Positions 905 through 35,660 of a stretch of 64,000 nucleotides of DNA are shown here, piece by piece. Origin of the DNA: Adlercreutzia sp. ZJ473 (GTDB lineage Bacteria > Actinomycetota > Coriobacteriia > Coriobacteriales > Eggerthellaceae); NCBI RefSeq assembly GCF_013185065.1, contig NZ_JAAVTO010000003.1, forward strand, positions 1 to 64,000, given 5' to 3'. Position 1 is the first letter of the stretch, and every line of letters begins with the position of its first letter. The notes beneath the pieces were generated by a model, which saw only the letters and a program-made list of their open reading frames with translations, was not told the DNA's origin and did no database searches. The position numbers and the translations under genes were made by a program.

Positions 905-3900
905 CTACTTGCTCAGGCCGCTCATGGCAACTGCCGTCGCGCCAGCGGGCGCGGCCGCCTCAGGCGACCAGCTCACGCCCCGACGGGCGGGCGACCCCGA
1001 GGGGGAGTCGCCGCCAGTGAGGTCGTCCTCGTACTCCTTCAGGCGGCGCGAGAACAGCGCGCGGCGGGTGGCGACGCACGCGGCGTAAACCAGCGTTACC
1101 ACGATGCCAAGGATAATGTAGAAGTGCACCCAGCAGCCCACATGGCGCTCAGCCAGCGGGGTGGCATCGTCGCCGATGTCGGCAAGCGGCGTCTGGCCGT
1201 CGCCGATGACAGCCTCGGCCGCGCCCTCAAGCGCGTCCACCAGAGGCGTGATCACGGGGGCCAGCGGGCCAGCGGGCACCGTGCCCGGAACCGGCGCCGG
1301 CGTCACAGGCGTCGGAGCGGGAGTCGGACCACCAGGGGTGACAGGACCCGGGGTGGGCGTCGGCGCAGGCGTGGGAACCGGATCAACCGGGATAGGATCA
1401 GTCTGCGCGGTGTCCGTAATGTCCTCCGTGCCCGGAGTACCCGGATTATCCGGATTGCTCGGGTCGCCAGGCTCGCCCGGACCACCCGGCTCACCAGGAC
1501 CACCAGGCTTACCCGGGTTGTCAGCCACGGCCGTCACGCTGTTGTACAGGTTGGTGGCGCCCAGGTCAGCCGCCTGCACGACGTACGCGTACTGAAGCGT
1601 AGCCGAAGCGTTCGGCGCAAGGCTGCCGATGGAAGCAACACCGCCGTTGACGAGCATCGCCTGACCAGCCGCGTTCTGCATCTGGTCGTCAAGCACGATG
1701 TTCTCGAGCGTCACGTTGCCGTTGTTGGTGACCGTCACGTCGAACGTGATGACCTCGCCCGGCGCATAGCTCGCGCCATTTGCCGGCGTGCTGGTCACGG
1801 TCTTGGCCACGAACATGCTCGGCTGCGGCGTGACCACCGGATCCTCCGTTTCGTCCGGAGTCACCTCAGGCTCGCCGCCCTCGGGGGCAGCGCCCGTGGC
1901 GGTCGCGCTGTTCACAACCTCGCCAGCAAGGACGTCATCCTCGGTAACCACATACTGAGCCGCAACGACGACCTCAGAACCAGGAGCCAGGCTGGCGATC
2001 GTGGCAGTCTGCCCGTTGACCTCATACCCATCACCGGCGACAATCTCGACGCCCTCGAGCTCGTCGGTCATGACGACGTCCGTGAGCGTGACGTTGCCGT
2101 TGTTGGCGACTGTGATGCGGTACTCGATGGCCTCGTCCAGGGCATAGGCCGCCCCGTTGGCAGGCGTACTCACGGTAGTCTTGCTCACCGCGATGCTCGG
2201 CTGCGGCTCATCCAGATCAACCTCATCGGTGTTCTCGAACGTCTTGTCGCTGTCCGAGAAGCTTGCAGTAATAGTATTAACGAACGTACCAGCCAGAATG
2301 TCAGCCTCGGTGATCGTGTAAGTCGCCTTCGTGCTCACCGTCACACCAGGCGCCACGTTCTCAAACTCGCTCTGCTCCAAGGTGACGCCTTCGATCTCAG
2401 AAAGCGTGATCTTCTTAAGCTCGTCGTAGATGTTGGTCGCATTGACGGTGAATTCAACCGTATCGCCAAGCCCGTACGCGCCAGCTGCATGTGTCTTGGT
2501 CACAACCTTGTTCGGATCGACAGGATCACCCGAGTCACCACCCGAACCACCATCCGTCACGGTCAGCGTGCCGATAACCGCGCTGACGGTGTAGTTGGCC
2601 GCCTTGGCAGTGTAGTCGTTGCCGTCGCCGGCCCACGTGATCTCAAAGGTGTTCGGGGCGTTGCCGACAAGGGTCTGGGTGCCAGTGGTGTCGAAGGACG
2701 CCGTCTCGCCGTTGACGAAGCCGGAGATCTCGCCGTCAGCCGTCAGCTCGGTGCCGTCGTAGGTCTTGCTGGCGTCGGGCGTGGTCACCGTCAGGGTCGC
2801 GGGGGTAATGACGACAGAAACGTCTTCGATTCTATGAACTTCTCGCCCATCACGCGATATAGCAACATCCACCTTTTGATTTACGACATCCGTAAACTCA
2901 TTTTCGATCGTCTCGGAGCCAACATAGAATTCAACTGTTTCGCTATCCAAAACACCCACAACGGATATAACCCTCGTCGTACCGTCGTATTCCTCATTTA
3001 CTGGCAAAGCTTGAATAGCGTGATAATCACGCGCGAAGTGGGCGTAGTAGGTGGCGGCCACGTTGAGGCCGCCGGCCTTGGCGGGGACGAAGGTCTGGCT
3101 AGTGGAGACCTCGTTGCCATCGGCGTCGGTCCAGTTCACGAAGTGGTAGCCGGCGTTGGCGGCCGCGGTGGAGCCGGACGCGGTGCCGGTGGCGGGCCTC
3201 AGCGTCTCGGAGCCCGGGTTGACCGAGCCCATGTCCTTGGAGTCGTCGCCGACCTGGTAATTGATGGTGACGTTGTCGTCCTCCGCGAAGTGGGCGTAGT
3301 AGGTGGCGGCCACGTTGAGGCCGCCGGCCTTGGCGGGGACGAAGGTCTGGCTAGTGGAGACCTCGTTGCCATCGGCGTCGGTCCAGTTCACGAAGTGGTA
3401 GCCGGCGTTGGCGGCCGCGGTGGAGCCGGACGCGGTGCCGGTGGCGGGCCTCAGCGTCTCGGAGCCCGGGTTGACCGAGCCCATGTCCTTGGAGTCGTCG
3501 CCGACCTGGTAATTGATGGTGACGTCGGCAATATCGCAATTAGCCGACACAGGGCTCATTATGTTCGCGGTCGTTCTTACATCACTAGTGCTCGTATTTA
3601 AATTATAGCTATATGCTGTTAACGCATCAGCGGTCAGAACGACTGCGCCCTTCTTACAATCCTCGGCTGTCACAGTATATTTCACTGTGCCAATATAGTA
3701 TCCATTCTCGTCCTTCGTTAGCCCTGATATGCTAGCTTCTTTGCCGTTAATTTTCACATTGCTTAACGTGGGGATTCCTGGATTCAATTGTATGCCGTCG
3801 TGCTCTGTTTCAGGCTTAATCTTAACCGTAAACGTCACGTCATTGTCAGCGGAGACATTTTCTTTGTTGCATTTTGCCTCAACTTCCAGTTTGGGCTGAT

Positions 3901-5707
3901 ATCCCGTAACCGTCACGGAAGCATTAACATTTTCTTGGTCAGTGCGCGAATAGCCAAAAAGCGCCACATATCCCTTTGCTTTGGCACGCGCCACAGCTTC
4001 ACTAAGTCCAGGATAACCATTGACCGTTCCATAGCCACCGTCAATCGGATAGAGATACGCATTCCCATAGCCTTTTATTTGCAGCACAGTGAGAAGATGA
4101 TTATTCGCGGGTTTAACGAATATCAAAATATAGCCCGGATGGATACGGCCAAGAGCGTCTTGATAGGCAAAGTCCTCTATATTCACCGTACCGCTGAACG
4201 GTTCGAATCGATTATAACTGGCGTCTTGTTCGTCTCTGAAAAAGAGGTACTCAGCTGTGGCATTCTCGATTTTCGTCTCAAGGTTCAGTTCCGAGTCCCA
4301 ACCATTCGATGCATATTTTGCGATTGAAGAGTTTGCTGCATAGATCGTGAAGTGGTCTACATCAAAGCTTTGCACGTTGGCATCGGCTTGGCGAGCACTA
4401 ATTATTTCTACCTTGGATGCGTCATCGGAGACACGGCAGACGTTCACTTCCCCACCTTCAAGATTGGCATCAAAGAAGCAGACGTTCACGGCGCCTTCTG
4501 GCTGAATGGCGTTGCCGTCCTTGTCGAGCAGCGTCACGTCGATGGCCACGACGTCCTGGAGCTCCTTGCCCTGCGCCTCAACCTTGGCGCTCACGGCGTC
4601 GATCACGTCCTGGCGCTCAACGCGGCTCGCCTGCACAGTGGTGCCCTCGGGGAGGATGCCCTCGCCGGCGGTCACCTTGACGATCACGTCGTCCACATAG
4701 GCCCAGTCCTCGAAGACGGGGCTGCTCACGTCAGCATGGACGGTGACGACCTCTTCGTCAGACGCGGCTGTGTCGGCAGTTGCTTCCGCATCAGCGGGTT
4801 CAGCTGCTTCGGATTCTTCGCTCTCAGGGGTTTCGGTGCCAGAAGCTTCAGGTGCAGGCTGTTCGGATTTGGAGGTTTCGTCAGACTCAGCAGCTTCATC
4901 GGCCACAGCAGCTTCGTTAGCTTCTACAGCCTCATCAGTTGTGGGCTTGACGGTATCTGCAGCCTCGTCAGCGGCGGCACTTTTGTCAGTCGCAGCGGCT
5001 TTGCTAACCTCTGTGCCTTCTTCGGTTACAGCGGGCTGGTTGGCCGGATCAGGCTCAGTCGCAGCAGGCTTGGTGGTATCGGGCTCAGTTGCTTCGGCAG
5101 TCGCTTCCGCATCGGCGGATTCGGTCGCTTCGGCCTCTTCGGTCGTGAGCTCAGTTGCGTCGGTACCGTCAGCCTGAGCCTTCGTGGAATATTCGGAGTC
5201 GCCAAGGGGCTTAGGCGCGAGAGCGGACTCAGCCGGCTCGACAGCCTTGTCGGCTTCGGTCTTCACGGTGATTTCGAGCTTGTTGCTGACGTACTCGGCA
5301 GCGATGGTGTACGTGCCGTCCTGGGTGGTGACGGGCACGTTCGCAGCTGCGGAGTTCTTCGCCGTGACGCCGACGACCTTATAGCCCTTCTCGGCGATCG
5401 CCTTGAACACAAGGTCGGCGGAATCAGACACCTTGAGCGTGACGGTGTCGGGGCCAGTCAGCTTCTGACCGCGCACTTCGACATAAGCGTTCGGCAAGTT
5501 GAAGGTGACCTTCGCTTCACCGATTCTCACGCCGTCGCCATCCACGGCGGACTGTCCCATCTGGGGCACGTCCTTAGCGCCGCCGTTCGTACCAGCCTCG
5601 GCGAACGCAAACACGTTCGTCATGCTGAGGACGAGCACAACCGACAGGAACACCGAGAGGACTTTGCCTTCGAAGGTTCCCTTTGCGTCTATGAGTCTCT
5701 CTAACAT
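905..5707 (-). CDS. Giant secreted repeat protein / adhesin with C-terminal membrane anchor
   Basis: The chosen ATG at 5707 has a GGTGG site and is followed at once by a signal peptide (hydrophobic run, then AFA-EAG); upstream in-frame ATGs at 5782 and 5854 are possible. Residues below count from 5707. In order: an Ala/Glu/Thr/Pro-rich acidic stretch (about 125-310), a beta-rich region, two identical 84-residue InlB/Listeria-Bacteroides-type repeats (about 728-895), a YDG/MBG-type domain, three DUF11/DUF7507-like immunoglobulin-fold repeats with the phrase TPANGA, and a Gly-Pro then Pro-Thr rich stalk. It ends with a Cys-Trp transmembrane helix and a basic cytoplasmic tail. There is no clear LPXTG motif. 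The family suggests a cell-surface adhesin. Codon use changes inside the gene: about 2815-3030 and 3527-4380 are AT-richer than the flanks. Confidence 0.8.
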   Translation of the reverse strand: MLERLIDAKGTFEGKVLSVFLSVVLVLSMTNVFAFAEAGTNGGAKDVPQMGQSAVDGDGVRIGEAKVTFNLPNAYVEVRGQKLTGPDTVTLKVSDSADLVFKAIAEKGYKVVGVTAKNSAAANVPVTTQDGTYTIAAEYVSNKLEITVKTEADKAVEPAESALAPKPLGDSEYSTKAQADGTDATELTTEEAEATESADAEATAEATEPDTTKPAATEPDPANQPAVTEEGTEVSKAAATDKSAAADEAADTVKPTTDEAVEANEAAVADEAAESDETSKSEQPAPEASGTETPESEESEAAEPADAEATADTAASDEEVVTVHADVSSPVFEDWAYVDDVIVKVTAGEGILPEGTTVQASRVERQDVIDAVSAKVEAQGKELQDVVAIDVTLLDKDGNAIQPEGAVNVCFFDANLEGGEVNVCRVSDDASKVEIISARQADANVQSFDVDHFTIYAANSSIAKYASNGWDSELNLETKIENATAEYLFFRDEQDASYNRFEPFSGTVNIEDFAYQDALGRIHPGYILIFVKPANNHLLTVLQIKGYGNAYLYPIDGGYGTVNGYPGLSEAVARAKAKGYVALFGYSRTDQENVNASVTVTGYQPKLEVEAKCNKENVSADNDVTFTVKIKPETEHDGIQLNPGIPTLSNVKINGKEASISGLTKDENGYYIGTVKYTVTAEDCKKGAVVLTADALTAYSYNLNTSTSDVRTTANIMSPVSANCDIADVTINYQVGDDSKDMGSVNPGSETLRPATGTASGSTAAANAGYHFVNWTDADGNEVSTSQTFVPAKAGGLNVAATYYAHFAEDDNVTINYQVGDDSKDMGSVNPGSETLRPATGTASGSTAAANAGYHFVNWTDADGNEVSTSQTFVPAKAGGLNVAATYYAHFARDYHAIQALPVNEEYDGTTRVISVVGVLDSETVEFYVGSETIENEFTDVVNQKVDVAISRDGREVHRIEDVSVVITPATLTVTTPDASKTYDGTELTADGEISGFVNGETASFDTTGTQTLVGNAPNTFEITWAGDGNDYTAKAANYTVSAVIGTLTVTDGGSGGDSGDPVDPNKVVTKTHAAGAYGLGDTVEFTVNATNIYDELKKITLSEIEGVTLEQSEFENVAPGVTVSTKATYTITEADILAGTFVNTITASFSDSDKTFENTDEVDLDEPQPSIAVSKTTVSTPANGAAYALDEAIEYRITVANNGNVTLTDVVMTDELEGVEIVAGDGYEVNGQTATIASLAPGSEVVVAAQYVVTEDDVLAGEVVNSATATGAAPEGGEPEVTPDETEDPVVTPQPSMFVAKTVTSTPANGASYAPGEVITFDVTVTNNGNVTLENIVLDDQMQNAAGQAMLVNGGVASIGSLAPNASATLQYAYVVQAADLGATNLYNSVTAVADNPGKPGGPGEPGGPGEPGDPSNPDNPGTPGTEDITDTAQTDPIPVDPVPTPAPTPTPGPVTPGGPTPAPTPVTPAPVPGTVPAGPLAPVITPLVDALEGAAEAVIGDGQTPLADIGDDATPLAERHVGCWVHFYIILGIVVTLVYAACVATRRALFSRRLKEYEDDLTGGDSPSGSPARRGVSWSPEAAAPAGATAVAMSGLSK
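3033..3284. repeat. 252-bp direct repeat, unit 1 (InlB-type domain)
   Basis: Coding repeat within the surface protein, in phase (84 codons). Apart from the last dozen bases it matches the next unit base for base by eye, which points to recent duplication or gene conversion. Confidence 0.85.
3285..3525. repeat. 252-bp direct repeat, unit 2 (InlB-type domain)
   Basis: Second copy directly abutting the first. The identity stops at GTGACGT, where the AT-richer segment of the gene begins. Such exact repeats can change copy number by slippage or recombination, and they can collapse in assembly. Confidence 0.85.
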
Positions 5708-6074
5708 CTCTACCACCCAGCTTCGTCTTCGCGGCCTGCCGCCTGACGTGCGGGTTGCGACCGCGCGCCTTGCGGCTTCCATTACGCGCCTGCGCTCGTG
5801 ACCAGGGGGACTCAAGCTGCTAGCCCCTGCATGATCTTCACGAACTCTGAGCATGCGCGTATACGGGTGTTTTCACCCACACAACAGATTATTACAGGGG
5901 GGTGACAAAATCAAATCGTTCGATACGAGATTTTAGGAGTTAGCACAAAGAGTTGAGGTGCGCGGGACGAGAGGCACAACGGAAGAGTTTTGCGTATGGG
6001 CGCAGAAGTTTTCAATAGCTTGATACGATAGCGCAACGAACGCCTTTAACGGCGTCCGCAAAGTGTCGTGGCTC
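5708..6074. other. Intergenic region between surface gene and restriction module
   Basis: The gap is about 370 bp. Nearest the surface gene the frame stays open in its phase up to 5854, so part may be a longer N-terminus. The rest (about 5880-6060) is AT-richer, as expected for the promoter of the surface gene. No hairpin, RNA or other gene is evident. Confidence 0.4.
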
Positions 6075-7091
6075 CTAGAGCTCTTCTACGCCAAAATCAT
6101 AGGGACCCATAAAGCGTTCCCCATCCAGGTGAATGACATGGTCTGGATCGGAGGCACACCATGCCTCAGTCTCCCAAGCTAAATCAGTCAGATACTGGCG
6201 CATCACCGAGCGATCGGGGAAGCACGGCACGAATACGATCTTGCTTTTCTGCGGCGCAAACAGCTCTATCAGCTCGCGCTTGCGGATAACGTCTATCGGT
6301 CCGTGCGTCGAGCAAGCCTCCATAAGGAAGAGCCACTGCCTGTCCTCCATCCAAACAACGAGATCAGGGGCTTTCCCATGCTCAGGTATCTCTATGCCCG
6401 CAGAAGCCATCAAAGCCTCTTGGTCAACCTTATGCGTATGATCGGTGTCGTCTATGTAGAGCACCTGACCGCCTGGGGCATATCTCGGGCAGAACTCCTC
6501 CACCATGTCCTTGATAAGCGCGTTCTGCCCACCAGCAGACAGCATCACCCCCGTGCCGTCCGGCAGCTCAACGGGCACCTTGTTCATGGCGCGAATCTTG
6601 GCTTGCTGCTGCCGCCATGTCTCAACACCGTCCAAGAACTCTCTCAAGCGCTCCTCGTAGACCTCGGTCCCCACCGCATGGAGAACTGGCAGCAAATTGG
6701 GATTCAGGCGGTAGTTCCATTTCGGAGAGTTAATCGGCCTGTCAGGCTGGTCGGCATTCTGCTCGATTAGCGCCCCCGCGCTGAACTGATGCAGCGTGAA
6801 CCGCCTGATTGCTTCGCGCGTGTTGGCAGCGTAATCTTGCCCCAGATGATCGCGCATCCAATCCATGAGCATGCGTGTCGTGTACATGTCGTTCGTCGCA
6901 TCAGACCAGCTGCTGTTCGCGTCCAAATGGGCCAATGCGAGAAGCGTCATCGAGCTTCGCTCGTTGAGGCGTTCCTTGTCCATTTCCAAATCGGCAAGAA
7001 CGTCCCTCGCTTGCTCTATGAGCTCGTTCAGCCTCAAATGAACGTCTTGCATATCTCGTCGATCTCCCCCTGCTCCATGCCGATTCGCCAT
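6075..7091 (-). CDS. BsuBI/PstI-type type II restriction endonuclease
   Basis: A 338-residue protein whose length and C-terminal half fit the BsuBI_PstI_RE family. The N-terminal half is helical. The C-terminal half carries a PD-(D/E)XK-like core with APDLVVWMEDRQWLFLMEA, i.e. an Asp followed by an acidic strand, and then ST-HGPID and RKREL. The family cuts CTGCAG; that specificity is inherited from the family and not shown here. It overlaps the end of the methyltransferase gene by 58 bp, the usual way such pairs are coupled; an internal ATG at 7052 would shorten the overlap. Base composition is lower in GC than the neighbours, in keeping with horizontal transfer. Confidence 0.85.
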   Translation of the reverse strand: MANRHGAGGDRRDMQDVHLRLNELIEQARDVLADLEMDKERLNERSSMTLLALAHLDANSSWSDATNDMYTTRMLMDWMRDHLGQDYAANTREAIRRFTLHQFSAGALIEQNADQPDRPINSPKWNYRLNPNLLPVLHAVGTEVYEERLREFLDGVETWRQQQAKIRAMNKVPVELPDGTGVMLSAGGQNALIKDMVEEFCPRYAPGGQVLYIDDTDHTHKVDQEALMASAGIEIPEHGKAPDLVVWMEDRQWLFLMEACSTHGPIDVIRKRELIELFAPQKSKIVFVPCFPDRSVMRQYLTDLAWETEAWCASDPDHVIHLDGERFMGPYDFGVEEL

Positions 7092-8440
7092 CTTGGGCCG
7101 ATCCTCTCCAGGTCATTCAACTGCGGGCACGGCATAGCCTTTATGTCCCTGGCGTTTACCTGCGTTGACCCGCTTACGCCTCTGAACCACCTGTCCAGAT
7201 AAGTGGAGTTGAGCCATAGGGAAATGCCTTGCGCAAGCTCCACCGATCGCAGAGGCACAACACCTCTGGGCGTTCCCGCGTGGATGAAGTTCAGGTGATT
7301 CTCTATCGCAGCTTCCGTGCAAAGTACCAGCGGACGCGCAACGACGCGCCGCTTCTCCTCCTTCGCCGAAAATCGCTTGACCACTACATACGGACCTGGC
7401 TTTATCAGCTGCTTGAGCGCTTTGACATTTCCGGCCTCCGCCTTGTACCACTGAGGCTTTCCCATGCGCAGCGGATGCTCGAGCACGCCTTTCGGAAAAT
7501 TGCCCGCATAGATCATCGGATAGACGTCATTGCCCTCGGGCTTCTCCTCGAATATTCGCTCCCTGTTCCTAAAGTCAACGACCTTGCCGGTGGAGGGACA
7601 GAGCCCGAGCGAGCATACCGTCTCCTCAAGCTTGCTTCCGTCTTGCGGCGTAATGCGCACCACGAGGCCGAAGGGGTCTATCAGATCTTGTGAGGAATAG
7701 CGCGTCCGCGTAACCCCATCGCTCTTGCCCATGGACTGAGACACCTCTATCTCCTCGACCTGCTTGCGCTTGGAGAATTTCACGAGCATCGTCTCTTGAA
7801 GCACCTTCGTGTCCGAAAACACCTCAGTCCTTGAGCCGTATACGTGAATGGCATCCAGCGAGTAGGAGCTGAGTGCATATCTCCTGAACGGCTCGAAGTA
7901 GCCCCCGTTGGTCCACGAACGCGGAACTATCGCTACGAGCTCGCCGTTATCGGCAAGCCTCGAAAGCCCCACCGCAATAAATGCCGCATAGAGGTTCGCC
8001 GATTTGCACGGCAGCGCGTCTTGGCGCGGATCGTTCGCCGCCATCTTCTTGTAGGGAGGATTGAGGATAACCCTATCGTAGGCCGCATCTGGCGTAGCGA
8101 TCAGGGCATCTCCCTGCGTCAGCTCATGAGGCACGCCCACCGACGCCATTTCAGCCTCAAATATTGTCGCGAGAACAGGGTCTGCCTCCACGGCATCCAG
8201 CTGCTCTATGCGCCCATCATATCGGTCATAGAGGGCTATGGAGAGCATTCCGGTACCGGCACCCAGGTCAAGACAGCGAATAAAAGCCTGGTCAGAGCCG
8301 AGCTCTGAGAACATCGAAACGGCGAGCTTCGCCGTCTCGGCGGGAGTCAAGTGCTGCGCAAGGGCATTGCGCTTCTCATCGGAAGTGGCCTGGATGACGT
8401 GCGTGCGCGTCTGCGCAGCCTGTTGCAAAACGCTAGCCAT
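7034..8440 (-). CDS. Type II DNA adenine-N6 methyltransferase (M.BsuBI/PstI-like)
   Basis: 468 residues with SAM-binding motif I (DLGAGTG, about residue 61) and the catalytic NPPY motif (about residue 126), the layout of gamma-class N6-adenine methylases of the Eco57I/BsuBI group. The C-terminal half would be the target-recognition part. It protects host DNA from the endonuclease encoded just downstream and overlapping it. The start has an excellent AAGGAG site 5 nt upstream. Methylase before nuclease is the safe order for establishing such a module after transfer. Confidence 0.88.
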   Translation of the reverse strand: MASVLQQAAQTRTHVIQATSDEKRNALAQHLTPAETAKLAVSMFSELGSDQAFIRCLDLGAGTGMLSIALYDRYDGRIEQLDAVEADPVLATIFEAEMASVGVPHELTQGDALIATPDAAYDRVILNPPYKKMAANDPRQDALPCKSANLYAAFIAVGLSRLADNGELVAIVPRSWTNGGYFEPFRRYALSSYSLDAIHVYGSRTEVFSDTKVLQETMLVKFSKRKQVEEIEVSQSMGKSDGVTRTRYSSQDLIDPFGLVVRITPQDGSKLEETVCSLGLCPSTGKVVDFRNRERIFEEKPEGNDVYPMIYAGNFPKGVLEHPLRMGKPQWYKAEAGNVKALKQLIKPGPYVVVKRFSAKEEKRRVVARPLVLCTEAAIENHLNFIHAGTPRGVVPLRSVELAQGISLWLNSTYLDRWFRGVSGSTQVNARDIKAMPCPQLNDLERIGPRWRIGMEQGEIDEICKTFI

Positions 8441-8549: not shown

Positions 8550-9254
8550 CTACTTCAGGGCGTACTTCGTTTTCACGCGGTCGAGCTTCTTCTTCCAGGG
8601 TGCGTAGATCACCAGCAGAAACGCCACCGTGGACACCGCGTGCACCAGGTCGAACGGCAGCGCGGCGCCGTAGGTGAGCAGCGCCGCCTCCCACGTGAGG
8701 GGGTGCACGAACCCCACGAGCGTCCACGTGTTCAGCAGCGCGCCATACAGAAGCGCCGAGAGGAACCCGTACCCGCAGACGGCGGCGCGGCGCGGCTCGC
8801 CTTCGCGCGTCTCGAACGCCCCGTGTTCGGCCAGAACGCCCGCGAGGTACCCCACGAGCCCCCACGCGTACATCTGCCAGGGCGTCCACGCGCCCTGGCC
8901 GAAGAAGAAGTTAGAGGTGAGCGCCGCGAGCGCGCCCGCCATGAAGCCGCAGCGCCGCCCGAACACCGCGCCCGCCAGGATGCAGATGGCGCTCACGGGC
9001 TTCACGTCGGGGACGGGAGCGAACAGGATGCGCCCCGCCGCCGCCAGCGCGCCGAGCACCGCCGCGGGCATGACCTGGCGCAGCGCAGGGCTTGACGCCT
9101 CCCAGCCCGCGAAGAACACGGCCAGCGCGCCCACCGCCACCGCGAAGGTGAGCAGCGCCGTCTGGTCGAGCTGGAAGAAGGCGGCGAGCGCCAGCGCCAC
9201 GGGAACGCAGGCGAGCACGACCGGCTCGAGCGCGACGAGCACGCGCGCCCTCAT
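8550..9254 (-). CDS. ECF transporter S component, probably cobalamin-specific (CbrT-like)
   Basis: A 234-residue, almost wholly hydrophobic protein with about six membrane segments, the size of the substrate-binding S subunits of energy-coupling-factor importers. The central part (GRILFAPVPDVKPVSAICILAG) carries the Pro/Lys-rich signature I associate with the CbrT and related S families. Its ATG overlaps the ATPase stop by four bases (ATGA), so it is translationally coupled. Cobalamin as substrate is inferred from the riboswitch and the intrinsic-factor-like proteins at the head of the same transcript; related S families carry other vitamins. Confidence 0.8.
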   Translation of the reverse strand: MRARVLVALEPVVLACVPVALALAAFFQLDQTALLTFAVAVGALAVFFAGWEASSPALRQVMPAAVLGALAAAGRILFAPVPDVKPVSAICILAGAVFGRRCGFMAGALAALTSNFFFGQGAWTPWQMYAWGLVGYLAGVLAEHGAFETREGEPRRAAVCGYGFLSALLYGALLNTWTLVGFVHPLTWEAALLTYGAALPFDLVHAVSTVAFLLVIYAPWKKKLDRVKTKYALK

Positions 9255-10915
9255 GCGCGGGGGCCTTTCGCGGCAGCCCCGGACGGGGTCGCCTTGGGCG
9301 CGGCGGCCTCGGACGGGGTCGCCTTGGGCGCGGCGGAGTCAGACGCGGCAGCATCCGCCCGGGCCGCCCGGTTCGCATCTTCCGCGTCCCAGAGCTGCGT
9401 GAACTGGTCGGGCTGCGGGCGGTAGAACAGGTTTTCGCGGCAGAACGCGCGCGTGGGCTGGCTGCACGCCACCTCGCCGTCGAAGAGCATCGTCATGTCG
9501 TCGGCCACGCGCGAGGCGAACGCCAGGTCGTGCGTCACCAGCACCACCTGGCATCCCTCGGCGCGCAGCTCGAGCAGCACGCGCGCCACCTCGCGCTTCG
9601 AGGGCGCGTCGAGGCCCTTGGTGGGCTCGTCGAGCAGCAGCAGGCGCGGGCGCGTGAGCATGAGCTTCGCCAGCGCGATCTTCTGCTGCTGCCCGCCGCT
9701 CACGTCGAAGGGGTGCCGGTCCGCGAGCTCCCCAATCCCCATGCGCGCCATGACCGCGTCGACCTCCGCACGGCCATAGCCCACGCCGTGCGCCCATTCG
9801 CCCAGCTCATCGCGCACTGTGTCGCACACCAGCAGCGCCTGGAGGTCTTGCGGGAGCAACGCCTGCTCGCGGCGCAGGGCGTTGCGCACGCGCCCGCGCT
9901 CAGGCGAAAGCACGCCCGCGAGCACGCGCAGCACCGTGGACTTCCCGCAGCCGTTGCCGCCCACGACGGCATGGATGCCCGGGCGCGAGAGGTCGAGGTC
10001 CATGTTGCGCAGGACCCACGCGGCGTCGCGCGCATAGCGGAAAAACGCGCCCTCGAGCGCGAGCGGGGCGGCGGGGGCGGGTTCGAAGCCGAACGTGCGG
10101 CGGAGCGGGGGCGCGAAAGAGGGGCGCAGGGCGCGGGACGTGCGAGGAGGGCGCGGGGCGCCGGAGCCGCGCTCTGGCACAAGCGCTTCCGCACCCTCCG
10201 CCTCCGCGCCCCAAACGAGCGCCTCATCTTCCCGAATCCGCAGGTCATCAAGGGTGCAGGGCAGCACGCGCCCGCCCTCCACGCGCGCGGCGCACGTGGC
10301 GTAGTCGACCATCGCCCCGGGGCTGTGCGTGGCCACCACCACCGTGATGCCCAGCTCGCGGTTCACGCGGAAGAGCGCGTGCAGGAAGCTGCGCTGCGCC
10401 ACGGGGTCGAGCTGCGCGGTGGGCTCGTCGAGCAGCAGCAGGCGCGGGCGCAGCGCGAGCACCGCCGCCAGGTTCAGCAGCTGCTTCTGCCCGCCCGACA
10501 GCGTGGACACCTCCCGCCGAAACCACGGCTCCATGCCGAAGAAGTGCGCCACCTCGGCCACGCGGCGGCGCATCGTGTCCTGGTCGAGCCCTTCGTTCTC
10601 CAGCCCGAACGCCAGCTCGTGCCACACCGTGTCGCACACGATCTGGTTGTCGGGGCTTTGGAACACGTACCCCACGTGCGGCGCGCGCCCGCCCGCGGCC
10701 ACCTCCTCGCCGAATGCGCGCACCGCGCCCGCGCGTGCGCCCGCCGGCGCTATCTCGGGCTTCGCGCAGCGCAGAAGCGTGGTCTTGCCCGAACCCGTGT
10801 TGCCCACGAGCAGGGCAAACGCGCCCTGGGGCACCGCCCAGTCCGCGTCCTTGAGCGCGGGGGCGGCGGCGCCCGCGTACGTGAAGCCGAAGCGTTCGTA
10901 AGTCAGCGCATCCAT
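9251..10915 (-). CDS. ECF transporter ATPase, EcfA1-EcfA2 fused in one chain
   Basis: 554 residues with two complete ABC ATPase domains. Domain 1 has Walker A GNTGSGKTT, signature LSGGQKQ and Walker B LLLLDEPTAQLD. Domain 2 has GGNGCGKST, VSGGQQQ and LLLLDEPTKGLD. ECF systems usually use two separate ATPases; here they are fused with an Ala/Pro-rich linker, and the C-terminus bears a repeated SEAAAPKATP tail (30-bp direct repeat near 9280-9336). The start is placed at MDALTYERF because the upstream frame overlaps EcfT and lacks domain features; this gives a 13-bp overlap with ecfT. Confidence 0.9.
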   Translation of the reverse strand: MDALTYERFGFTYAGAAAPALKDADWAVPQGAFALLVGNTGSGKTTLLRCAKPEIAPAGARAGAVRAFGEEVAAGGRAPHVGYVFQSPDNQIVCDTVWHELAFGLENEGLDQDTMRRRVAEVAHFFGMEPWFRREVSTLSGGQKQLLNLAAVLALRPRLLLLDEPTAQLDPVAQRSFLHALFRVNRELGITVVVATHSPGAMVDYATCAARVEGGRVLPCTLDDLRIREDEALVWGAEAEGAEALVPERGSGAPRPPRTSRALRPSFAPPLRRTFGFEPAPAAPLALEGAFFRYARDAAWVLRNMDLDLSRPGIHAVVGGNGCGKSTVLRVLAGVLSPERGRVRNALRREQALLPQDLQALLVCDTVRDELGEWAHGVGYGRAEVDAVMARMGIGELADRHPFDVSGGQQQKIALAKLMLTRPRLLLLDEPTKGLDAPSKREVARVLLELRAEGCQVVLVTHDLAFASRVADDMTMLFDGEVACSQPTRAFCRENLFYRPQPDQFTQLWDAEDANRAARADAAASDSAAPKATPSEAAAPKATPSGAAAKGPRA

Positions 10916-11901
10916 CGCAGGCGGTCTCCTAGGACGACGAGGCACGGCAGGAAGAAGTACAGCGCGTAGGGCACATATCCCCACCACAGCGTGAGCGTGC
11001 TCAGGGAGGGGTAGAAGCGGTACTGCGACGTGGCCGCCCACGCGCAGGCGGCGCACGCCGCGCCGAGGCCGAGGACCACGGCGAGCGCGAGGGCGTCGGC
11101 GCGCGCGAAGCGCTGCCGGCGGTAGGTGGTGCGGGTGCGCCCGCTCGCCCAGCCGCGGCTGCGCATGGCGTCGGCCGTCTCGAGGGAGTTCTCCATCCCC
11201 CATCCCACGAGGGCGGAGGCGACGCGCGCGCCCTCGCGCAGCCGCGCGGCTTTGCCGAATGAGATTGTTTGGCGCGCCGCCGTGCATGCCCCCTGGACGG
11301 CGCTGATCTCGCGGCCCTGCCGCACGAAGCGCGGGATGAGGCGCATGCACATCGACGTCATGAGCGCCACCGTGGGCAGGCGGTTGCCCAGCACGCCCGT
11401 CACCTTGTCGGACGTGAGCACGCACGCCGCGTTGGCGAACTCGACCATGACGGCCATGAGCAGCGCGCCCATGCAGAGGCCGTACGCGAAGCTCTCGAAG
11501 TACACGGCGCGCACGCCGATGCGGAAGAGCTCCGTGGAGCCCATCGGGGAGAAGAGCGGGTTGGCGAGCGCGACGAGCACCAGCATCGGAACTTGCCACA
11601 GCGCGGCGCGCGCCACCTGGCAGCCGCCGCGCAGGCACACGCCCAGGCAGACTGCCGACGCGAGCGCGAGAGCCACGAGCACCGGCTGGAAGGCGGCCAT
11701 GGTGAGTACGAGCGCGATGGCGGCATAGGCCACCGCCACCACAGGGTGCAGCGCGTCGAAGGCGCTCGCGGCAAAGGAGCGGGGGCCTTCGTCGGGAAGA
11801 TCCCCCTGCCCTTCGCGACAGGCGCCTTGCGCATCTTGGGTGCCGCCGAAGTCGCCGGAATCGCTGGCGCCTGCGCGGCTATGGGTTTCGCCGTGGGCCA
11901 T
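10903..11901 (-). CDS. ecfT: ECF transporter transmembrane coupling protein EcfT
   Basis: 332 residues: a polar N-terminal stretch of about 45 residues, several membrane helices, and the cytoplasmic coupling-helix signature MRSRGWASGRT, matching the Ala-Arg-Gly type motif with which EcfT grips the ATPases. The start is the ATG five bases after the stop of the preceding DUF4430 gene. It forms the core transporter with the fused ATPase and the S component downstream. Confidence 0.88.
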   Translation of the reverse strand: MAHGETHSRAGASDSGDFGGTQDAQGACREGQGDLPDEGPRSFAASAFDALHPVVAVAYAAIALVLTMAAFQPVLVALALASAVCLGVCLRGGCQVARAALWQVPMLVLVALANPLFSPMGSTELFRIGVRAVYFESFAYGLCMGALLMAVMVEFANAACVLTSDKVTGVLGNRLPTVALMTSMCMRLIPRFVRQGREISAVQGACTAARQTISFGKAARLREGARVASALVGWGMENSLETADAMRSRGWASGRTRTTYRRQRFARADALALAVVLGLGAACAACAWAATSQYRFYPSLSTLTLWWGYVPYALYFFLPCLVVLGDRLRWMR

Positions 11902-11906
11902 CTCGG

Positions 11907-12980
11907 CTAGACGACGTAGTACCAGCGGACGGAATCGCCTGATGAGAGCACATATCCGCCCGCGGGGACCATCGGCGTGGAGCCGTTGACTGAGTACATC
12001 CAGCCGCTTCCCGCGCTGACCTGCTTCTCGGCGAGTCCGTTGACAGCCGTCACGTAGGAGCTTGAGCCGCTCACGGACACGCCCGACGCGCACAGGGCGT
12101 CGTATGCCGTCGCGCCCTCGCGCAGGCTCACCGACGTGGAGGCCATGCAGCTGGGGTAGCCCGCGCTCGCGGCCTTGGAGCTGTCGACGTAGACCGACAC
12201 CGTGATGGTGGCGGGAGCGGGTGCGGGAGTTGGGGCAGGAGTCGGCTTGGGAGCGGGCTCTGGCTTGGATTCGGGAGCGGGTGCAGCAGGCGTAGCGGCG
12301 GGAGCGGAAGCGTTCGGGCTGCCGGAGCTACCTGACGCACCCGGGCTGCCGGGGCCGCCCGAGCCGCTAGAGCCACCTGACGTGCTGGAGCCACCTGACG
12401 CCGCAGCGGCGCTCGCGGCAGCGTTTACGGCAGCGTCGCTGCTAGAAGCAGCATCGGCCGAGCCGGCGCCGCCGTCGGCAGAGCCCTCGGAGGAAGCACC
12501 TGCGGAGGATTCGCCGTCAGCCGCAGCCTCGGAAGAATCGCCCGACTCCGCCGCGCTGCCTTCGCCACCTTCACCGCCTTCGCCAGCGCCCTCAGCCGTG
12601 TCGGCCTGCTGGCTTTGCGATGACCCCTGCGCTGCGGGCCCGCTTTCGACAACCGAGCTCGGAGAGCCGAACGCGAACACGCACGCCACAACGACCAGTG
12701 CCAACGCCGCGCAAAGCGCCCCGATGACAACGGGCCGCCTGCTTCGCGTAGAAGCGGGCGCAGCCGCGGCGGTTGCAAGCTCATCGGCCTCTGCCCCCGT
12801 AGCGCGCGCAGGAACCACCCGCGCATCAGCGCCCGCCGCAGCGTCAGCTGCAATCACCTCAGCCTCGCGCGCATGGACATCAGCATCTTCCGCTCCCGCT
12901 ATGACACCACCGTCGGCGCACGGCGCCCCCGACTCGCTCTCGAGGGCGCCGTTCTCTTTCTCCCGGTTAAGGTCAGCCAT
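11907..12980 (-). CDS. Membrane-anchored DUF4430 (transcobalamin-C-like) protein
   Basis: 357 residues. About 80 cytoplasmic residues are followed by one transmembrane helix (ALCAALALVVVACVFAFG) and a long Ser/Gly/Ala and Pro-rich spacer. The C-terminal domain (about 255-357) ends GWMYSVNG, then GD and RWYYV, the hallmark of DUF4430, which resembles the beta-domain of transcobalamin/intrinsic factor. The topology (inside-out, type II) would display that domain close to the membrane at the mouth of the ECF importer. I infer a hand-over role from the wall-anchored protein to the S component. It starts 9 nt after the previous gene. Confidence 0.8.
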   Translation of the reverse strand: MADLNREKENGALESESGAPCADGGVIAGAEDADVHAREAEVIAADAAAGADARVVPARATGAEADELATAAAAPASTRSRRPVVIGALCAALALVVVACVFAFGSPSSVVESGPAAQGSSQSQQADTAEGAGEGGEGGEGSAAESGDSSEAAADGESSAGASSEGSADGGAGSADAASSSDAAVNAAASAAAASGGSSTSGGSSGSGGPGSPGASGSSGSPNASAPAATPAAPAPESKPEPAPKPTPAPTPAPAPATITVSVYVDSSKAASAGYPSCMASTSVSLREGATAYDALCASGVSVSGSSSYVTAVNGLAEKQVSAGSGWMYSVNGSTPMVPAGGYVLSSGDSVRWYYVV

Positions 12981-12989
12981 GCTCTTCGC

Positions 12990-15290
12990 CTAGCGAGGCA
13001 CGACGTCTCGCGCCGCGTGCGACGCCCTGCGGCGGGCAGTCACCGCGCAGGCAATCGCGCCGAGCAGGACGGCTGCGGCCACGCCAGCCGAAGTTCCCGC
13101 GTCATCCCCCGTCGGAGCCAAAGCGTTCCCCGAGGAAGCCTCGGTGGCCTGGGCGGCGGAAGGCGCCTGGGCGGCCGGATCAGCAGCGGGACCAGCAGCC
13201 GACTCCTGAGCGGCCGGATCGGTAGCGGGATTGGCAGCCGACTCCTGGGGCGTCTGGCCGGCAGCGGGATCAGCGGCAGGATCCTGCGGATTCGGCGCGC
13301 TCGGAAGCGCCGCCTCGCCCTTGGCAGCCTGGGTGTACACGTTGTAGGCAGCCCCCGTGTTCTTCAGCCCCTGGTAGGCCACGAGCGCCATGAAGCCCTG
13401 CTGGTCAGCGAGCTCCTGCGAGTACCCCTGGGGGATCACGAAGCCCGTAAGGTCCTCGTTGGCGCTCGCCAACAGGGCCTTGAGGGGCGTGTTGCCCGTC
13501 GCGGTGGCCCACGCTTCGCCAGCGGGGTCAACGCCCGCCGCGCAGAGCGCGATGGCGGCGACGGCCGTCGAGTTCACGTTCCCGAACCCGCCGTCATCCT
13601 GCTGCAGGGAGCGCATGGCGCCCAAGGCGCGCGACAGCATGTCGCTTGCAAGGGGATTGCCCTGGTAAGCGGCAAGCGCGGGAACGACCATGGCCGTCGT
13701 GTCAACGCCCCAGCTTGAAGCGAAGCCGCCGCCCGCCTCCTGCGACGCGGCCAGCTCGTCGAGCAGGGCCTGCGCGGAGTTGACGGCGGAAGCGGGCACC
13801 TCGTACGGGCCCGCCGCGTACGCCATCAGCGTGAAGGCGGCGCTCGTCGGGTACGAGTCAACGGCGGAAGCCGCGTCGGCCAACTTCGCCACCAGGTCGA
13901 TCGTGCCCTTGGCCGCGGGAACCTTCGTGGCGTCAACGCCCAGCGCCGTCAGCGCGAGGATGCTGCGCTGCAGGTTGTACCCGTCAGGCTTGTCGTAGCT
14001 CGCCTGCGCCTCGGCGATGACCGCATCCTTGTTGGCGGTCGAAGCCTGGCCTGCAGCAGCGATCGACAGCGCGTTCCAGTCGCTCACGTTAGACTCGCTC
14101 GGGCCGCCGGCGCCGGCGCATCCTGCCGCGAGGTTGGCGAACATCGTGCGGTGGACGCCCTCCAGGTCAGCGTCGAGGGCGCTCGCGTCAACCTTAGCCG
14201 TCGAGGGGCTCGGCGTCACAGCCTCTTCGCCCTGGGCCGTCCCCTGGCTGGATTCGGCCTTCGCCGAGAGCGCGCCCCAGTCGGAGGGGGCGGTGTTGGC
14301 GAAGGAGTCCACGTAGGCGAACTGGAAGCACGCGCCGGCGGTCAGGGCGTCGCCCTCCTGGCAGGCGGATCCGTCCGCGTACTTCCCGTCCTTGTAGTTC
14401 GCCCAGCTGGCCGACCAGTCGGCCTGGTTGGCCGCGACGGTGCCGTCGGCGAGCGTGACGGAGTCGATGTAGGGCCCGTGCCCGCCGTCCTTGAACGCGA
14501 AGCCCTTGATGTCGCCCGCGTCCTTCGCAGCCTGGAACAGGTCGCCCAGGGTGGCGCCCTCCTCGAAGCCGTAGGTCTTGTTGACGACGACGTTCGCCTT
14601 GCCGTCGAACGTGCTCACGCCCTTGACTACCGTGAGCGTCGCGGTGCCCTTGACCTTATTGCCTGCAACGCTGCCAGCCTTGGTGACAACCTGCTTGCTT
14701 TCGTCCGCCTTCGCCGAGAGCGCGCCCCAGTCGGAGGGGGCGGTGTTGGCGAAGGAGTCCACATAGGCGAACTGGAAGCACGCGCCGGCGGTCAGGGCGT
14801 CGCCCTCCTGGCAGGCGGAGCCGTCCGCGTACTTCCCGTCCTTGTAGTTCGCCCAGCTGGCCGACCAGTCGGCCTGGTTGGCCGCGACGGTGCCGTCGGC
14901 GAGCGTAACGGAGTCGATGTAGGGCCCGTACCCGCCGTCCTTGAACGCGAAGCCCTTGATGTCGCCCGCGTCCTTCGCGGCCTGGAACAGGTCGCCCAGG
15001 GTGGCGCCCTCCTCGAAGCCGTAGGTCTTGTTGACGACGACGTTCGCCTTGCCGTCGAACGTGCTCACGCCCTTGACTATCGTGAGCGTCGCGGTGCCCG
15101 CCGTTTGCTCGGCTGCTGCGGGGGTTGCGGGGGCCGCGGACGTCACGGGAGCCGCAGACGGTTCCGCTGCCCATGCCGGGACGGCGGGCATGAGGCCCGC
15201 GCACAGCACGAGCGCCATGAGCGCCGCCAGCAACCTTGTCGTGAGTTTTGCGCCAGACCCCGCGGGGGGCGCGAGTTTCGTTCCAACCAT
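12990..15290 (-). CDS. Wall-anchored intrinsic-factor-like cobalamin-capture protein (predicted)
   Basis: 766 residues from an ATG with a strong AAGGAG site. A signal peptide ends AWA-AEP (about residue 41). Two near-identical DUF4430-like domains (about 63-196 and 213-346) each carry WSASWANYKDGKY and EGDAL. A helical segment of about 280 residues follows (about 375-655), with repeated patterns such as GGGFASSWGVDTTAMVVPALAAY and DDGGFGNVNSTAVAAIAL, typical of the alpha/alpha barrel shared by prenyltransferase-type enzymes and the intrinsic factor alpha-domain. A Pro/Ala spacer leads to LAPTG (about 725), a hydrophobic helix and RRR, a class E (LAXTG) sortase signal. It heads the ECF operon, directly below a cobalamin riboswitch. 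Cobalamin binding is inference; domains and anchor are seen. Confidence 0.82.
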   Translation of the reverse strand: MVGTKLAPPAGSGAKLTTRLLAALMALVLCAGLMPAVPAWAAEPSAAPVTSAAPATPAAAEQTAGTATLTIVKGVSTFDGKANVVVNKTYGFEEGATLGDLFQAAKDAGDIKGFAFKDGGYGPYIDSVTLADGTVAANQADWSASWANYKDGKYADGSACQEGDALTAGACFQFAYVDSFANTAPSDWGALSAKADESKQVVTKAGSVAGNKVKGTATLTVVKGVSTFDGKANVVVNKTYGFEEGATLGDLFQAAKDAGDIKGFAFKDGGHGPYIDSVTLADGTVAANQADWSASWANYKDGKYADGSACQEGDALTAGACFQFAYVDSFANTAPSDWGALSAKAESSQGTAQGEEAVTPSPSTAKVDASALDADLEGVHRTMFANLAAGCAGAGGPSESNVSDWNALSIAAAGQASTANKDAVIAEAQASYDKPDGYNLQRSILALTALGVDATKVPAAKGTIDLVAKLADAASAVDSYPTSAAFTLMAYAAGPYEVPASAVNSAQALLDELAASQEAGGGFASSWGVDTTAMVVPALAAYQGNPLASDMLSRALGAMRSLQQDDGGFGNVNSTAVAAIALCAAGVDPAGEAWATATGNTPLKALLASANEDLTGFVIPQGYSQELADQQGFMALVAYQGLKNTGAAYNVYTQAAKGEAALPSAPNPQDPAADPAAGQTPQESAANPATDPAAQESAAGPAADPAAQAPSAAQATEASSGNALAPTGDDAGTSAGVAAAVLLGAIACAVTARRRASHAARDVVPR
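14261..14649. repeat. 389-bp direct repeat, unit 2 (DUF4430-like domain)
   Basis: In-frame coding repeat, 450 bp (150 codons) apart from its partner. I count about six mismatches by eye. It encodes the second DUF4430-like domain of the capture protein. Confidence 0.85.
14711..15099. repeat. 389-bp direct repeat, unit 1 (DUF4430-like domain)
   Basis: The N-terminal-proximal copy. The near identity at synonymous sites implies recent duplication or ongoing conversion, and a repeat number that may vary between strains. Confidence 0.85.
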
Positions 15291-15320
15291 GTGTCGGAAT
15301 CTCCTTCCAGGGCTCGATTC

Positions 15321-15565
15321 GATGGATGGGCATTCCGACTTCGCCTCACTTGGGCAGATCCACATGCCTGCGATCTCACGTCGAGTCGCCGCCCTCGCGC
15401 CCGCGCACCCCTGCAAACAGGGATAACGCGCCACGCGCGGCAACGCTCTTGCGAGCCTTCTGCCCATCGGCGTTTACGGTTACTGGTATAGCGAGGGATT
15501 CGCACCCTCATTCCCCCAAGCTCACCCGACCTCGAGCAAGCTCGCGCCCCGCCGGCGCAACCATC
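15321..15565 (-). ncRNA. Cobalamin (B12) riboswitch
   Basis: On the minus strand, GGGGGAATGAGGGTGCGAAT followed by CCCTCGC matches the conserved GGGAA-n-GGTGCGAATCC-n-GC core. Next come ACCAGTAACCGT and, about 130 nt on, GCGAAGTCGGAATGCCC, a variant of the 3' GAAG-CC-GA-CC-GCC box. Outer bases GATGG (15565-15561) and CCATC can close P1. The element ends about 15 nt before the AAGGAG site of the capture-protein gene, so translational control is plausible. A TACAAT -10-like hexamer lies at 15584-15589. A covariance-model search (Rfam RF00174) would settle it. Confidence 0.82.
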
Positions 15566-15767
15566 AGTGCCAATACGCAGGCCATTGTAGCACCCCCGAC
15601 CGCCAGGCGCGTGGGAGGATGGAGACGTCGAACCGGAACTCGCTAAAGAAGCACGTCGCAGACAACCCCCACGCGAAACCATCTCGAGCCGATCATCAAG
15701 AATGCTCGCCAGCGTAAACGCCATAACGTCGTAATCGCAGTGGATCGCCGACGACCCGACGACGTTG

Positions 15768-15954
15768 CCGACAACGGTGTTTTTCCATCCACCCCTCAAG
15801 TGATTCTGGATGAAACAAGGCCGTTATCGGCGATTTCCCGAGAAAAGTGGCTGCGAAAGCGCCGTTGTCGGTGGTTTTCGAGGCTCGAAGCACCGACAAC
15901 GGGCGCTTTCCATCCAGCTTTTCAGAATGGTGGATGGAAAAAGGGCGTTGTCGG
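15768..15954. repeat. 187-bp dispersed structured repeat, copy A
   Basis: The ends are inverted: CCGACAACG and TTCCATCCA at the left, TGGATGGAA and CGTTGTCGG at the right. Inside, 15855-15873 pairs with 15891-15910 (stem around GCCGTTGTCGGTG / CACCGACAACGG), and CCATCCA pairs with TGGATGG. A second copy of the same length lies at 35474-35660. Short frames through it are not convincing genes. It could be a MITE-like element or a structured RNA. Confidence 0.75.
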
Positions 15955-16133
15955 TTGCTCGAGTCCCTGCTCAAGTCCTATGGGCTCGAAAAGGCCGTGT
16001 CGCTGCTCGCAGGCAGCGAGGATGTTGAGCCCGAGCGCAGGCGGACCGCTGACACAATAACCGACGATATCGCCCGAGTTGATTGCTGTGATACATTGAT
16101 CTTGACGCCAGCCCATCAACCTGAGGAGCGCCC

Positions 16134-35473: not shown

Positions 35474-35660
35474 CCGACAACGGCGCTTTCCCATCCACTC
35501 CTCAGGCGATCCTGGATGAAAAGGGGTCGTTATCGGCGATTTCTCGGGAAAAGTGGATGCGAAAGCGCCGTTGTCGGTGGTTTTCGGGGCTCGAATCGCC
35601 GACAACGCGCCTTTTCCATCCAGCTTTTCAGAATGGTGGATGGAAAAGGCGCGTTGTCGG
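35474..35660. repeat. 187-bp dispersed structured repeat, copy B
   Basis: Same length and order as 15768-15954, about 85-90 percent identical by eye. Differences often keep pairing: the outer arm GGCGC at the left meets GCGC at the right. An extra GTTGTCGG follows at 35682-35689. It lies between the tRNA scar and a toxin-antitoxin pair. The 35400-35803 gap holds nothing else I can support. Confidence 0.75.

Follow-up and report, generated by a model that had tools for sequence, protein, structure and literature searches.

The closest described relatives of the locus reported here are bacterial surface proteins combining an SLBB domain with an alpha/alpha toroid, which were proposed to scavenge vitamin B12 (Burroughs, Balaji, Iyer and Aravind, 2007; PMC1796856). 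In the sections of that study that deal with them, these systems are described from Gram-positive bacteria as anchored to the wall, paired with a paralogue and encoded in CbiO/CbiQ operons, and animals are proposed to have acquired their intrinsic-factor and transcobalamin proteins from such bacteria. We found no experimental test of this Gram-positive arrangement in the literature. On the transport side, the S component CbrT, which was assayed by complementation of an E. coli laboratory strain lacking btuF, btuC and metE, has been shown to import cobalamin and cobinamide, and S components bind their substrate directly in the ECF mechanism (PMC5997447). The locus contains an SLBB-toroid fusion, an anchor, an SLBB paralogue and CbiO and CbiQ genes, in a genome that is missing synthesis genes (CbiC, CobS), and so has the features by which the 2007 systems were recognised. 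The original prediction for this DNA, a B12 capture-and-import locus with human intrinsic-factor-like parts, was largely right in its overall interpretation, but the general idea had already been put forward in 2007, and the reference to human parts runs in the wrong direction, as the proposal in the sections concerned is that animals acquired the proteins from Gram-positive bacteria (PMC1796856).

A reading of the window, by which we mean the whole 64,000-nucleotide stretch analysed, recovers each of the six parts that had been claimed, all on the minus strand between 8550 and 15590 and in the expected order, which from 5' to 3' is riboswitch, P1, P2, EcfT, EcfAA' and S component. The features, with the evidence for each, are:

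15584..15589, minus strand: TACAAT, a -10-like element lying immediately upstream of the aptamer (sequence)
15288..15576, minus strand: cobalamin riboswitch leader of the AdoCbl-II type, up to the P1 start codon (Rfam, relatives, covariation)
15293..15339, minus strand: expression platform, predicted function (folding)
12990..15290, minus strand: P1, 766 aa, secreted wall-anchored catcher (sequence, Pfam, model, fold match)
14760..15098, minus strand: P1 beta domain 1, a transcobalamin-like beta-grasp that includes a hairpin (model residues 7-119)
14310..14648, minus strand: P1 beta domain 2, repeated in tandem and almost identical to domain 1 (model residues 157-269)
13320..14171, minus strand: P1 alpha/alpha toroid (model residues 316-599)
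12993..13121, minus strand: P1 sorting signal, with LAPTG, hydrophobic stretch and RRR tail (sequence)
11907..12980, minus strand: P2, 357 aa, membrane-tethered (Pfam, model, fold match, orthologues)
10903..11910, minus strand: EcfT, divergent CbiQ-like transmembrane component, start uncertain (orthologue, weak match, position)
9251..10915, minus strand: EcfAA', ECF ATPase with its two domains fused, probable start at the ATG at 10915 (Pfam, NCBIfam)
8550..9254, minus strand: S component, CbrT-like (PDB match, Pfam)

The order P1-P2-EcfT-EcfAA'-S is kept across many of the Eggerthellaceae genera compared, which argues that the arrangement is not due to chance. A second such system is absent from the genome, in which DUF4430 has a single match.

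The riboswitch is divergent. A search of the window at the Rfam gathering score returned no match; below threshold, AdoCbl-II (RF01689) scores 31.1 bits against a cut-off of 36.5 at 15452-15524 on the minus strand (E 6.5e-5, in a 1.6-kb search), and the leader is the best match to RF00174 in the 2.63-Mb genome (15422-15559, minus strand; 18.0 bits against a cut-off of 31.5). The predicted RF00174 match therefore falls short of the curated threshold in the window itself, but is rescued by ten leaders in relatives that score above Rfam cut-offs and cover three cobalamin families. An alignment of the leaders contains nine base pairs in which both sides have changed and pairing is kept; together with the scores of the relatives, this conservation of pairing places the window leader as a divergent cobalamin riboswitch (clan CL00101). 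A consensus scan alone gave no promoter, while a TANAAT-like element stands at the place equivalent to the -10-like element in most orthologous leaders. Folding of the region before P1 gives a hairpin of GUCGGAAU (15332-15339) with AUUCCGAC (15293-15300) that encloses the ribosome-binding site AAGGAG (15301-15306); the adjoining CUGG (15307-15310) could pair with CCAG in the aptamer loop (15483-15486), and CCCTGGAA is invariant in the leaders of the same type as that of the window. We propose that at low intracellular cobalamin this riboswitch, of the AdoCbl-II kind, would leave the operon on, and that high cobalamin would turn it off, probably at the level of translation through burial of the P1 ribosome-binding site.

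Translation of P1 likely starts at the ATG at 15290, behind AAGGAG, rather than with the longer mechanical open reading frame from 15467. The protein consists of a signal peptide, two beta domains, the alpha/alpha toroid and the LAPTG sorting signal. Equivalent sorting-signal layouts are found in its homologues, with LVQTG, LAQTG or LAKTG for example, and the genome has five sortase-family matches. A sequence search of the PDB with P1 and P2 yielded only chance or low-complexity matches, which made a fold search necessary; in this search transcobalamin is the top PDB match of both proteins, in agreement with the structural part of the original prediction. For P1 the match is 2v3n (E 1.4e-4), with moderate whole-chain TM-scores (TMt 0.40-0.47) and a model pTM of 0.56, so that the relative placing of the P1 domains is not fixed by the model. 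The first beta domain matches the transcobalamin beta domain in fold, and the two repeats are 98% identical in DNA over 300 nt (DNA repeat 14704-15003). The two repeats of P1 qualify as DUF4430-like through their fold alone: Pfam finds no DUF4430 in the P1 of the window, but does find it in 3 of 20 homologues.

The barrel region of P1 folds as a toroid, as had been expected, and transcobalamin and intrinsic factor are among its best fold matches. Pfam places it just or well below cut-off, with 25 bits for SQHop_cyclase_C and 17 bits, against a cut-off of 25, for Cobalamin_bind (PF01122). Terpene cyclases are interspersed among the best fold matches of P1, and by sequence profile the toroid has its best PDB matches in squalene-hopene and drimenyl-diphosphate cyclases. 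A terpene-cyclase-like enzyme was rejected as a reading of P1, given transcobalamin as the top fold of P1 and P2 alike and an operon that couples a transporter to a B12 riboswitch. The suggestion of an intrinsic-factor-like architecture holds for the folds of both surface proteins but not for the domain order, which is beta-beta-toroid and not toroid-beta; with this order P1 would work like intrinsic factor and yet not be filed with it under PF01122. We propose that P1 is secreted and sorted to the cell wall, where its transcobalamin-like beta domains and toroid would capture cobamides.

P2 comprises a transmembrane segment, a long low-complexity linker and a C-terminal DUF4430 domain (11907-12212) that Pfam recognises at 59 bits against a cut-off of 23.8 (E 6.5e-16). 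Its model has a pLDDT of 97.5, and 17 of the first 19 fold matches of the domain are transcobalamin, haptocorrin or intrinsic factor. The orthologues have either a transmembrane segment or a lipobox, and the profiles of P1 and P2 align weakly (hhalign probability 8%, E 0.004). At the membrane, P2 would carry a further beta domain of the transcobalamin kind at the end of a long tether.

The importer genes follow. EcfT, between P2 and EcfA, has no Pfam match in the window; it weakly matches the EcfT of L. delbrueckii, with an AMxSRG motif, and is identified through its orthologue L048, which scores above the CbiQ cut-off. EcfAA' has two ABC_tran domains (Pfam), and its best NCBIfam match is ECF_ATPase_1. 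The S component scores 45.9 bits for ECF-ribofla_trS (Pfam), and its best PDB match is CbrT (6fnp_A; E 1.6e-9 over 171 residues). Together these three proteins would bring the ligand into the cell. The host, an Eggerthellaceae bacterium, is probably auxotrophic for B12: CbiC and CobS, the two B12 synthesis genes searched for, are both absent from its genome, which does encode a MetH-type B12-binding domain. Uptake of free cobalt was rejected on the absence of these two genes and the CbrT-like character of the S component. The riboswitch, the CbrT-like S component and the absent synthesis genes support the predicted ligand class. The predicted cobamide capture and import under a B12 riboswitch is likewise supported, and we consider it highly likely that the operon is a dedicated cobamide-uptake system of riboswitch, surface catchers and ECF importer, with ligand binding as a predicted property.

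How the parts cooperate is a matter for more tentative proposals. Gene order and anchors make plausible a relay from P1 at the wall to P2 at the membrane and on to the S component of the importer, which we put forward as a possibility somewhat short of even odds. It is also conceivable, if short of probable, that there is no relay. P1 would then act as a reservoir or competitor, anchored in the wall and concentrating cobamides close to the cell, and the importer would be served either by P2 alone or by the S component alone, with the same operon, ligand class and regulation. Since S components bind their substrate directly (PMC5997447), import does not mechanically depend on P1 and P2, and two relatives (G044, G077) have a riboswitch-led lipoprotein with the beta domain only and no toroid, so that part of the chain can be missing. 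Against this stands the fixed order of P1, P2 and the ECF genes in many genera, which favours a common task.

Two deeply different toroid types (A and B) occur at this one conserved locus; a transporter tree of the relatives was built from tblastn frames, and an apparent P1-P2 fusion in L035 (G074) was left out as it spans undetermined bases. Full-length matches to P1 in a phylum-wide search are confined to the Eggerthellaceae, and the other matches are mainly to the toroid. The mature region of P1 has been exchanged between close relatives, with signal peptide, sorting signal and transporter unmoved, an observation that is new here. Perhaps P1 is an exchangeable cassette. Its mature part, the cobamide-binding one, would be swapped repeatedly for a deeply different version with a type A or type B toroid, homogenisation would make the tandem beta domains alike within each protein, and signal peptide, sorting signal, P2 and transporter would stay in place; if so, one would suspect selection that acts to change cobamide specificity or to avoid recognition at the surface. 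The two toroid types, and the import of cobinamide by the related CbrT (PMC5997447), would also suit a main ligand other than cobalamin, either a different cobamide or a corrinoid that is not complete, for example cobinamide, with cobalamin a minor substrate. We regard this as rather unlikely: no sequence feature examined here distinguishes cobamides, and a cell without CobS would lack the usual route for completing cobinamide that it had imported, which speaks for complete cobamides. Import of cobalt or another vitamin by the S component and ECF module, with P1 and P2 as adhesins or terpene-cyclase-like enzymes merely sharing the operon, could draw on the cyclase matches of the toroid, the riboflavin-transporter name of the S-component family and the sub-threshold riboswitch of the window, but is very improbable given cobalamin riboswitch families above cut-off before orthologous operons, transcobalamin first by fold for P1 and P2, CbrT as the best S-component match, and a lack of CbiC that leaves cobalt for B12 synthesis without sense.

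This locus family provides a concrete and testable candidate for B12 capture at the surface of Eggerthellaceae. To the 2007 prediction we add the evidence of riboswitch, fold and S component, three independent lines that tie the bacterial transcobalamin relatives to B12. Bacterial proteins of the P1 and P2 type could be used to test whether intrinsic factor originated in bacteria, as has been proposed, and catcher exchange at a fixed transporter opens a new approach to cobamide competition.

The locus resembles the systems of Burroughs et al. in fusing toroid and beta domain, in having a signal peptide and an anchor of the Gram-positive type, in its second SLBB paralogue, in its genes for an ATPase and a CbiQ-like protein, in the loss of B12 synthesis and in a proposed role in B12 scavenging; the sections describing those systems name no riboswitch, CbrT-like S component or catcher exchange, and the beta domain is doubled here, unlike in the systems they describe (PMC1796856). 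ECF-CbrT of Lactobacillus delbrueckii (PDB 6FNP; PMC5997447) has a homologous S component and an ECF module, whereas here the ECF genes lie in the S-component operon as a dedicated module, the two ATPases form one fused protein, and there are surface binders in addition. Animal intrinsic factor, transcobalamin and haptocorrin share the folds of toroid and beta domain with P1 and P2, but at 15-20% identity and in the reverse order to the beta-beta-toroid found here, where there are two beta domains, a third on P2 and a wall anchor. The leader shares the conserved core and a P4-type hairpin with the AdoCbl-II (RF01689) and AdoCbl (RF01482) riboswitches, and differs from RF01689 in scoring under its cut-off and in an insertion ahead of the B12-box-like element. 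BtuG and BtuB are not homologous to P1 and P2, being of another protein family and working at the outer membrane with TonB-dependent transport. In gut Bacteroides they nevertheless follow an idea like the one proposed here, the capture of B12 at the exposed surface ahead of the transporter (PMC6143338).

The minus-strand operon places five genes behind one leader. Only 9 bases separate the end of P1, the wall-anchored catcher, from the start of P2, the membrane-tethered DUF4430 protein, and the genes further downstream overlap by a few bases; thus all five likely share one transcript.

Features of the operon and its downstream neighbour
12990-15290, minus strand: P1, first gene behind the leader
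11907-12980, minus strand: P2, second gene
10903 to about 11910, minus strand: EcfT, third gene
9251-10915, minus strand: EcfAA', fourth gene
8550-9254, minus strand: S component, fifth gene
6075-8440: type II restriction-modification pair (BsuBI/PstI-type endonuclease and Eco57I-like methylase), directly downstream of the operon

P1 most likely starts at the ATG at 15290 behind AAGGAG, giving 766 amino acids; an alternative longer frame from 15467 would pass through the riboswitch. The gene next downstream of the S component starts at 8440 with its own AGGAGG-like site and belongs to the BsuBI/PstI-type restriction-modification pair, outside the B12 operon. At 905-5854 lies a putative surface protein of 1649 amino acids, rich in repeats, whose N-terminal part is acidic and of low complexity and whose C-terminus has a hydrophobic segment. 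An interspersed palindromic repeat, GATGGAAA followed by exactly 6 variable bases and CGTTGTCGG, is found at 15768-15955, just upstream of the B12 operon, and at 35599-35660; it has 35 exact matches in the genome (0 for a reversed control), frequently in inverted pairs, and is possibly a REP- or MITE-like element.

P1 is built of a signal peptide, two beta domains whose DNA is 98% identical across 300 nt, a toroid and an LAPTG sorting signal, and five sortase matches are present in the genome. At sequence level the toroid resembles squalene-hopene cyclase and, to a lesser degree, the eukaryotic Cobalamin_bind family, both under cut-off, and a profile of 20 homologues compared with the PDB leads to terpene cyclases. 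The structure model (pLDDT 83.8, pTM 0.56) comprises two beta-grasp domains and an alpha/alpha toroid. Its top PDB match is transcobalamin (2v3n, E 1.4e-4); intrinsic factor with cubilin (3kq4_A, 6.2e-4) and more transcobalamins are among the best matches, with drimenyl diphosphate synthases interspersed. The model scores 0.66 (TMt) against the human transcobalamin beta domain on its own (5no0) and 0.58 against chain B of a human intrinsic factor entry (2pmv_B, 267 residues). For the DUF4430 domain of P2 (pLDDT 97.5), transcobalamin, haptocorrin or intrinsic factor supplied 17 of 19 first matches in the fold search, and the remaining two are chains from a protein of Ruminococcus gnavus that carries the annotation 'putative metal binding'. 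With transcobalamin first for P1 and this family dominant for P2, the models support the original prediction that both surface proteins have an intrinsic-factor-like fold. P2 orthologues carry a transmembrane segment or lipobox and a long low-complexity linker, and appear to be tied to the membrane.

EcfAA' contains two ECF ATPase domains. EcfT of the window has no Pfam match and, judged by sequence, is divergent; it matches L. delbrueckii EcfT weakly with the AMxSRG motif present, and an orthologue scores above the CbiQ cut-off. The best PDB match of the S component is 6FNP chain A (E 1.6e-9, 171 residues), from ECF-CbrT, for which import of cobalamin and cobinamide has been demonstrated (PMC5997447). 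The host is probably a B12 consumer lacking B12 synthesis, since a MetH-type B12-binding domain with DIHDIGKNIV is kept while CbiC and CobS were not found in the genome (99.87% complete). We propose that P1 and P2 would bind the ligand, which may be cobalamin or another cobamide, and that it could be handed over among P1, P2 and the S component.

The cobalamin riboswitch originally proposed for the leader passed no curated Rfam cut-off, as did no other match in the window, the AdoCbl-II model (RF01689) reaching 31.1 bits at 15452-15524 (minus strand) against a cut-off of 36.5 in a focused search; its placement held, as the best RF00174 match in the whole 2.63-Mb genome (15422-15559) is exactly the operon's leader. 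RF00174 (E up to 10) hits the orthologous operon's leader in 16 of 17 genomes with a readable leader, a set that takes in the riboswitch-led beta-only relatives G044 and G077. Ten relatives' leaders pass an Rfam cut-off: RF01482 at loci L032, L035, L038 and L041, RF01689 at L034, L043, L044, L046 and L049, and RF00174 at L042. Eleven AdoCbl-II-type leaders are alignable; their core is invariant, and nine base pairs have changed on both sides yet still pair. In most of these leaders, a TANAAT-like -10 element lies directly upstream. Because the leader is the genome's best match, relatives exceed the cut-off and pairs covary, we regard it as a real riboswitch despite its sub-cut-off score.

In every AdoCbl-II-type leader, CCCTGGAA comes downstream of the B12-box-like AGTCGGAA and sits either immediately ahead of the ribosome-binding site or inside it, and CUGG is able to pair with CCAG of UAUACCAGUAACCG. 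This pairing fits the loop-loop contact expected of cobalamin riboswitches; its bases are invariant, so that it is without covariation. In the folded window leader the ribosome-binding site is enclosed by GUCGGAAU...AUUCCGAC. From this folding and the CUGG/CCAG pairing, which may act as a loop-loop switch, B12 would likely shut off P1 translation. In other relatives of the same operon a classical AdoCbl aptamer replaces the AdoCbl-II type, making the link to B12 independent of any single RNA class.

A P1 homologue occurs in 24 of 149 genomes in a neighbourhood search (the window's own counted), and the order P1-P2-EcfT-EcfAA'-S recurs in many genera. Across a phylum-wide sample of 246 genomes, full-length P1 matches are confined to the same family, the remaining matches covering mostly the toroid. 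In G044 and G077 the riboswitch is followed by a beta-domain-only lipoprotein in place of P1; at L043 7407-8112, after EcfT-EcfAA'-S, and at L044 4461-5182, lipoproteins behind a riboswitch carry one P1-type beta domain and lack a toroid.

A probable exchange of the mature part of P1 between relatives, absent from the original prediction, emerges from the comparison of genomes. Between the window and G002, a genome of the same genus, DNA identity is 88-95% over the riboswitch and signal peptide and mostly 77-99% over the sorting signal, P2, transporter and S component, but only about 44-64%, roughly the floor for aligning GC-rich DNA, over mature P1 (about 15135-13346). Protein identity is 98% for the P2 domain and 94% for the S component but only 31% for the toroid. 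L033 7278-9080 and window 13346-15135, from two species of one genus, differ deeply in mature P1 with gene ends and transporter nearly identical. The window's genome groups with G002 on the transporter tree; the toroid tree has two deep types, and on it the window's genome groups with G001 while G002 lies in the opposite type. Constraining the transporter tree to unite the type B genomes is rejected (p-AU 9.7e-5), as is constraining the toroid tree to unite the window's genome, G001 and G002, these p-values being indicative since the grouping was first noticed on the toroid tree; at least four changes of toroid type are required on the transporter tree. In four species the beta domains within one protein are 98, 98, 95 and 89% alike, against at most about 60% to those of any other species; in the remaining species this difference is small or absent. 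The simplest reading of these sequences is recombination in which the catcher is replaced and its repeats are homogenised. Differential loss of ancient paralogues is less likely, given the near-identity of both gene ends. Cobamide specificity and escape from surface recognition would be candidate drivers of such an exchange.

Burroughs 2007 (PMC1796856) describes fusions of transcobalamin-like SLBB domains with alpha/alpha toroids in Gram-positive bacteria. These proteins are often secreted and attached to the wall, frequently accompanied by another SLBB paralogue, and encoded in operons alongside a CbiO-like ATPase and CbiQ-like proteins, in hosts without B12 synthesis; the authors propose that they scavenge B12 and that they passed from bacteria to animals. 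By that description our locus is a member of the predicted kind; no experimental test of the prediction was found in the open-access literature. To the prediction as worded there, our analysis adds the riboswitch, the CbrT-like S component, the probable exchange of the catcher, and structure models that put P1 and P2 beside transcobalamin. Compared with animal intrinsic factor and transcobalamin, the domain order of P1 is reversed, the beta domains preceding the toroid.
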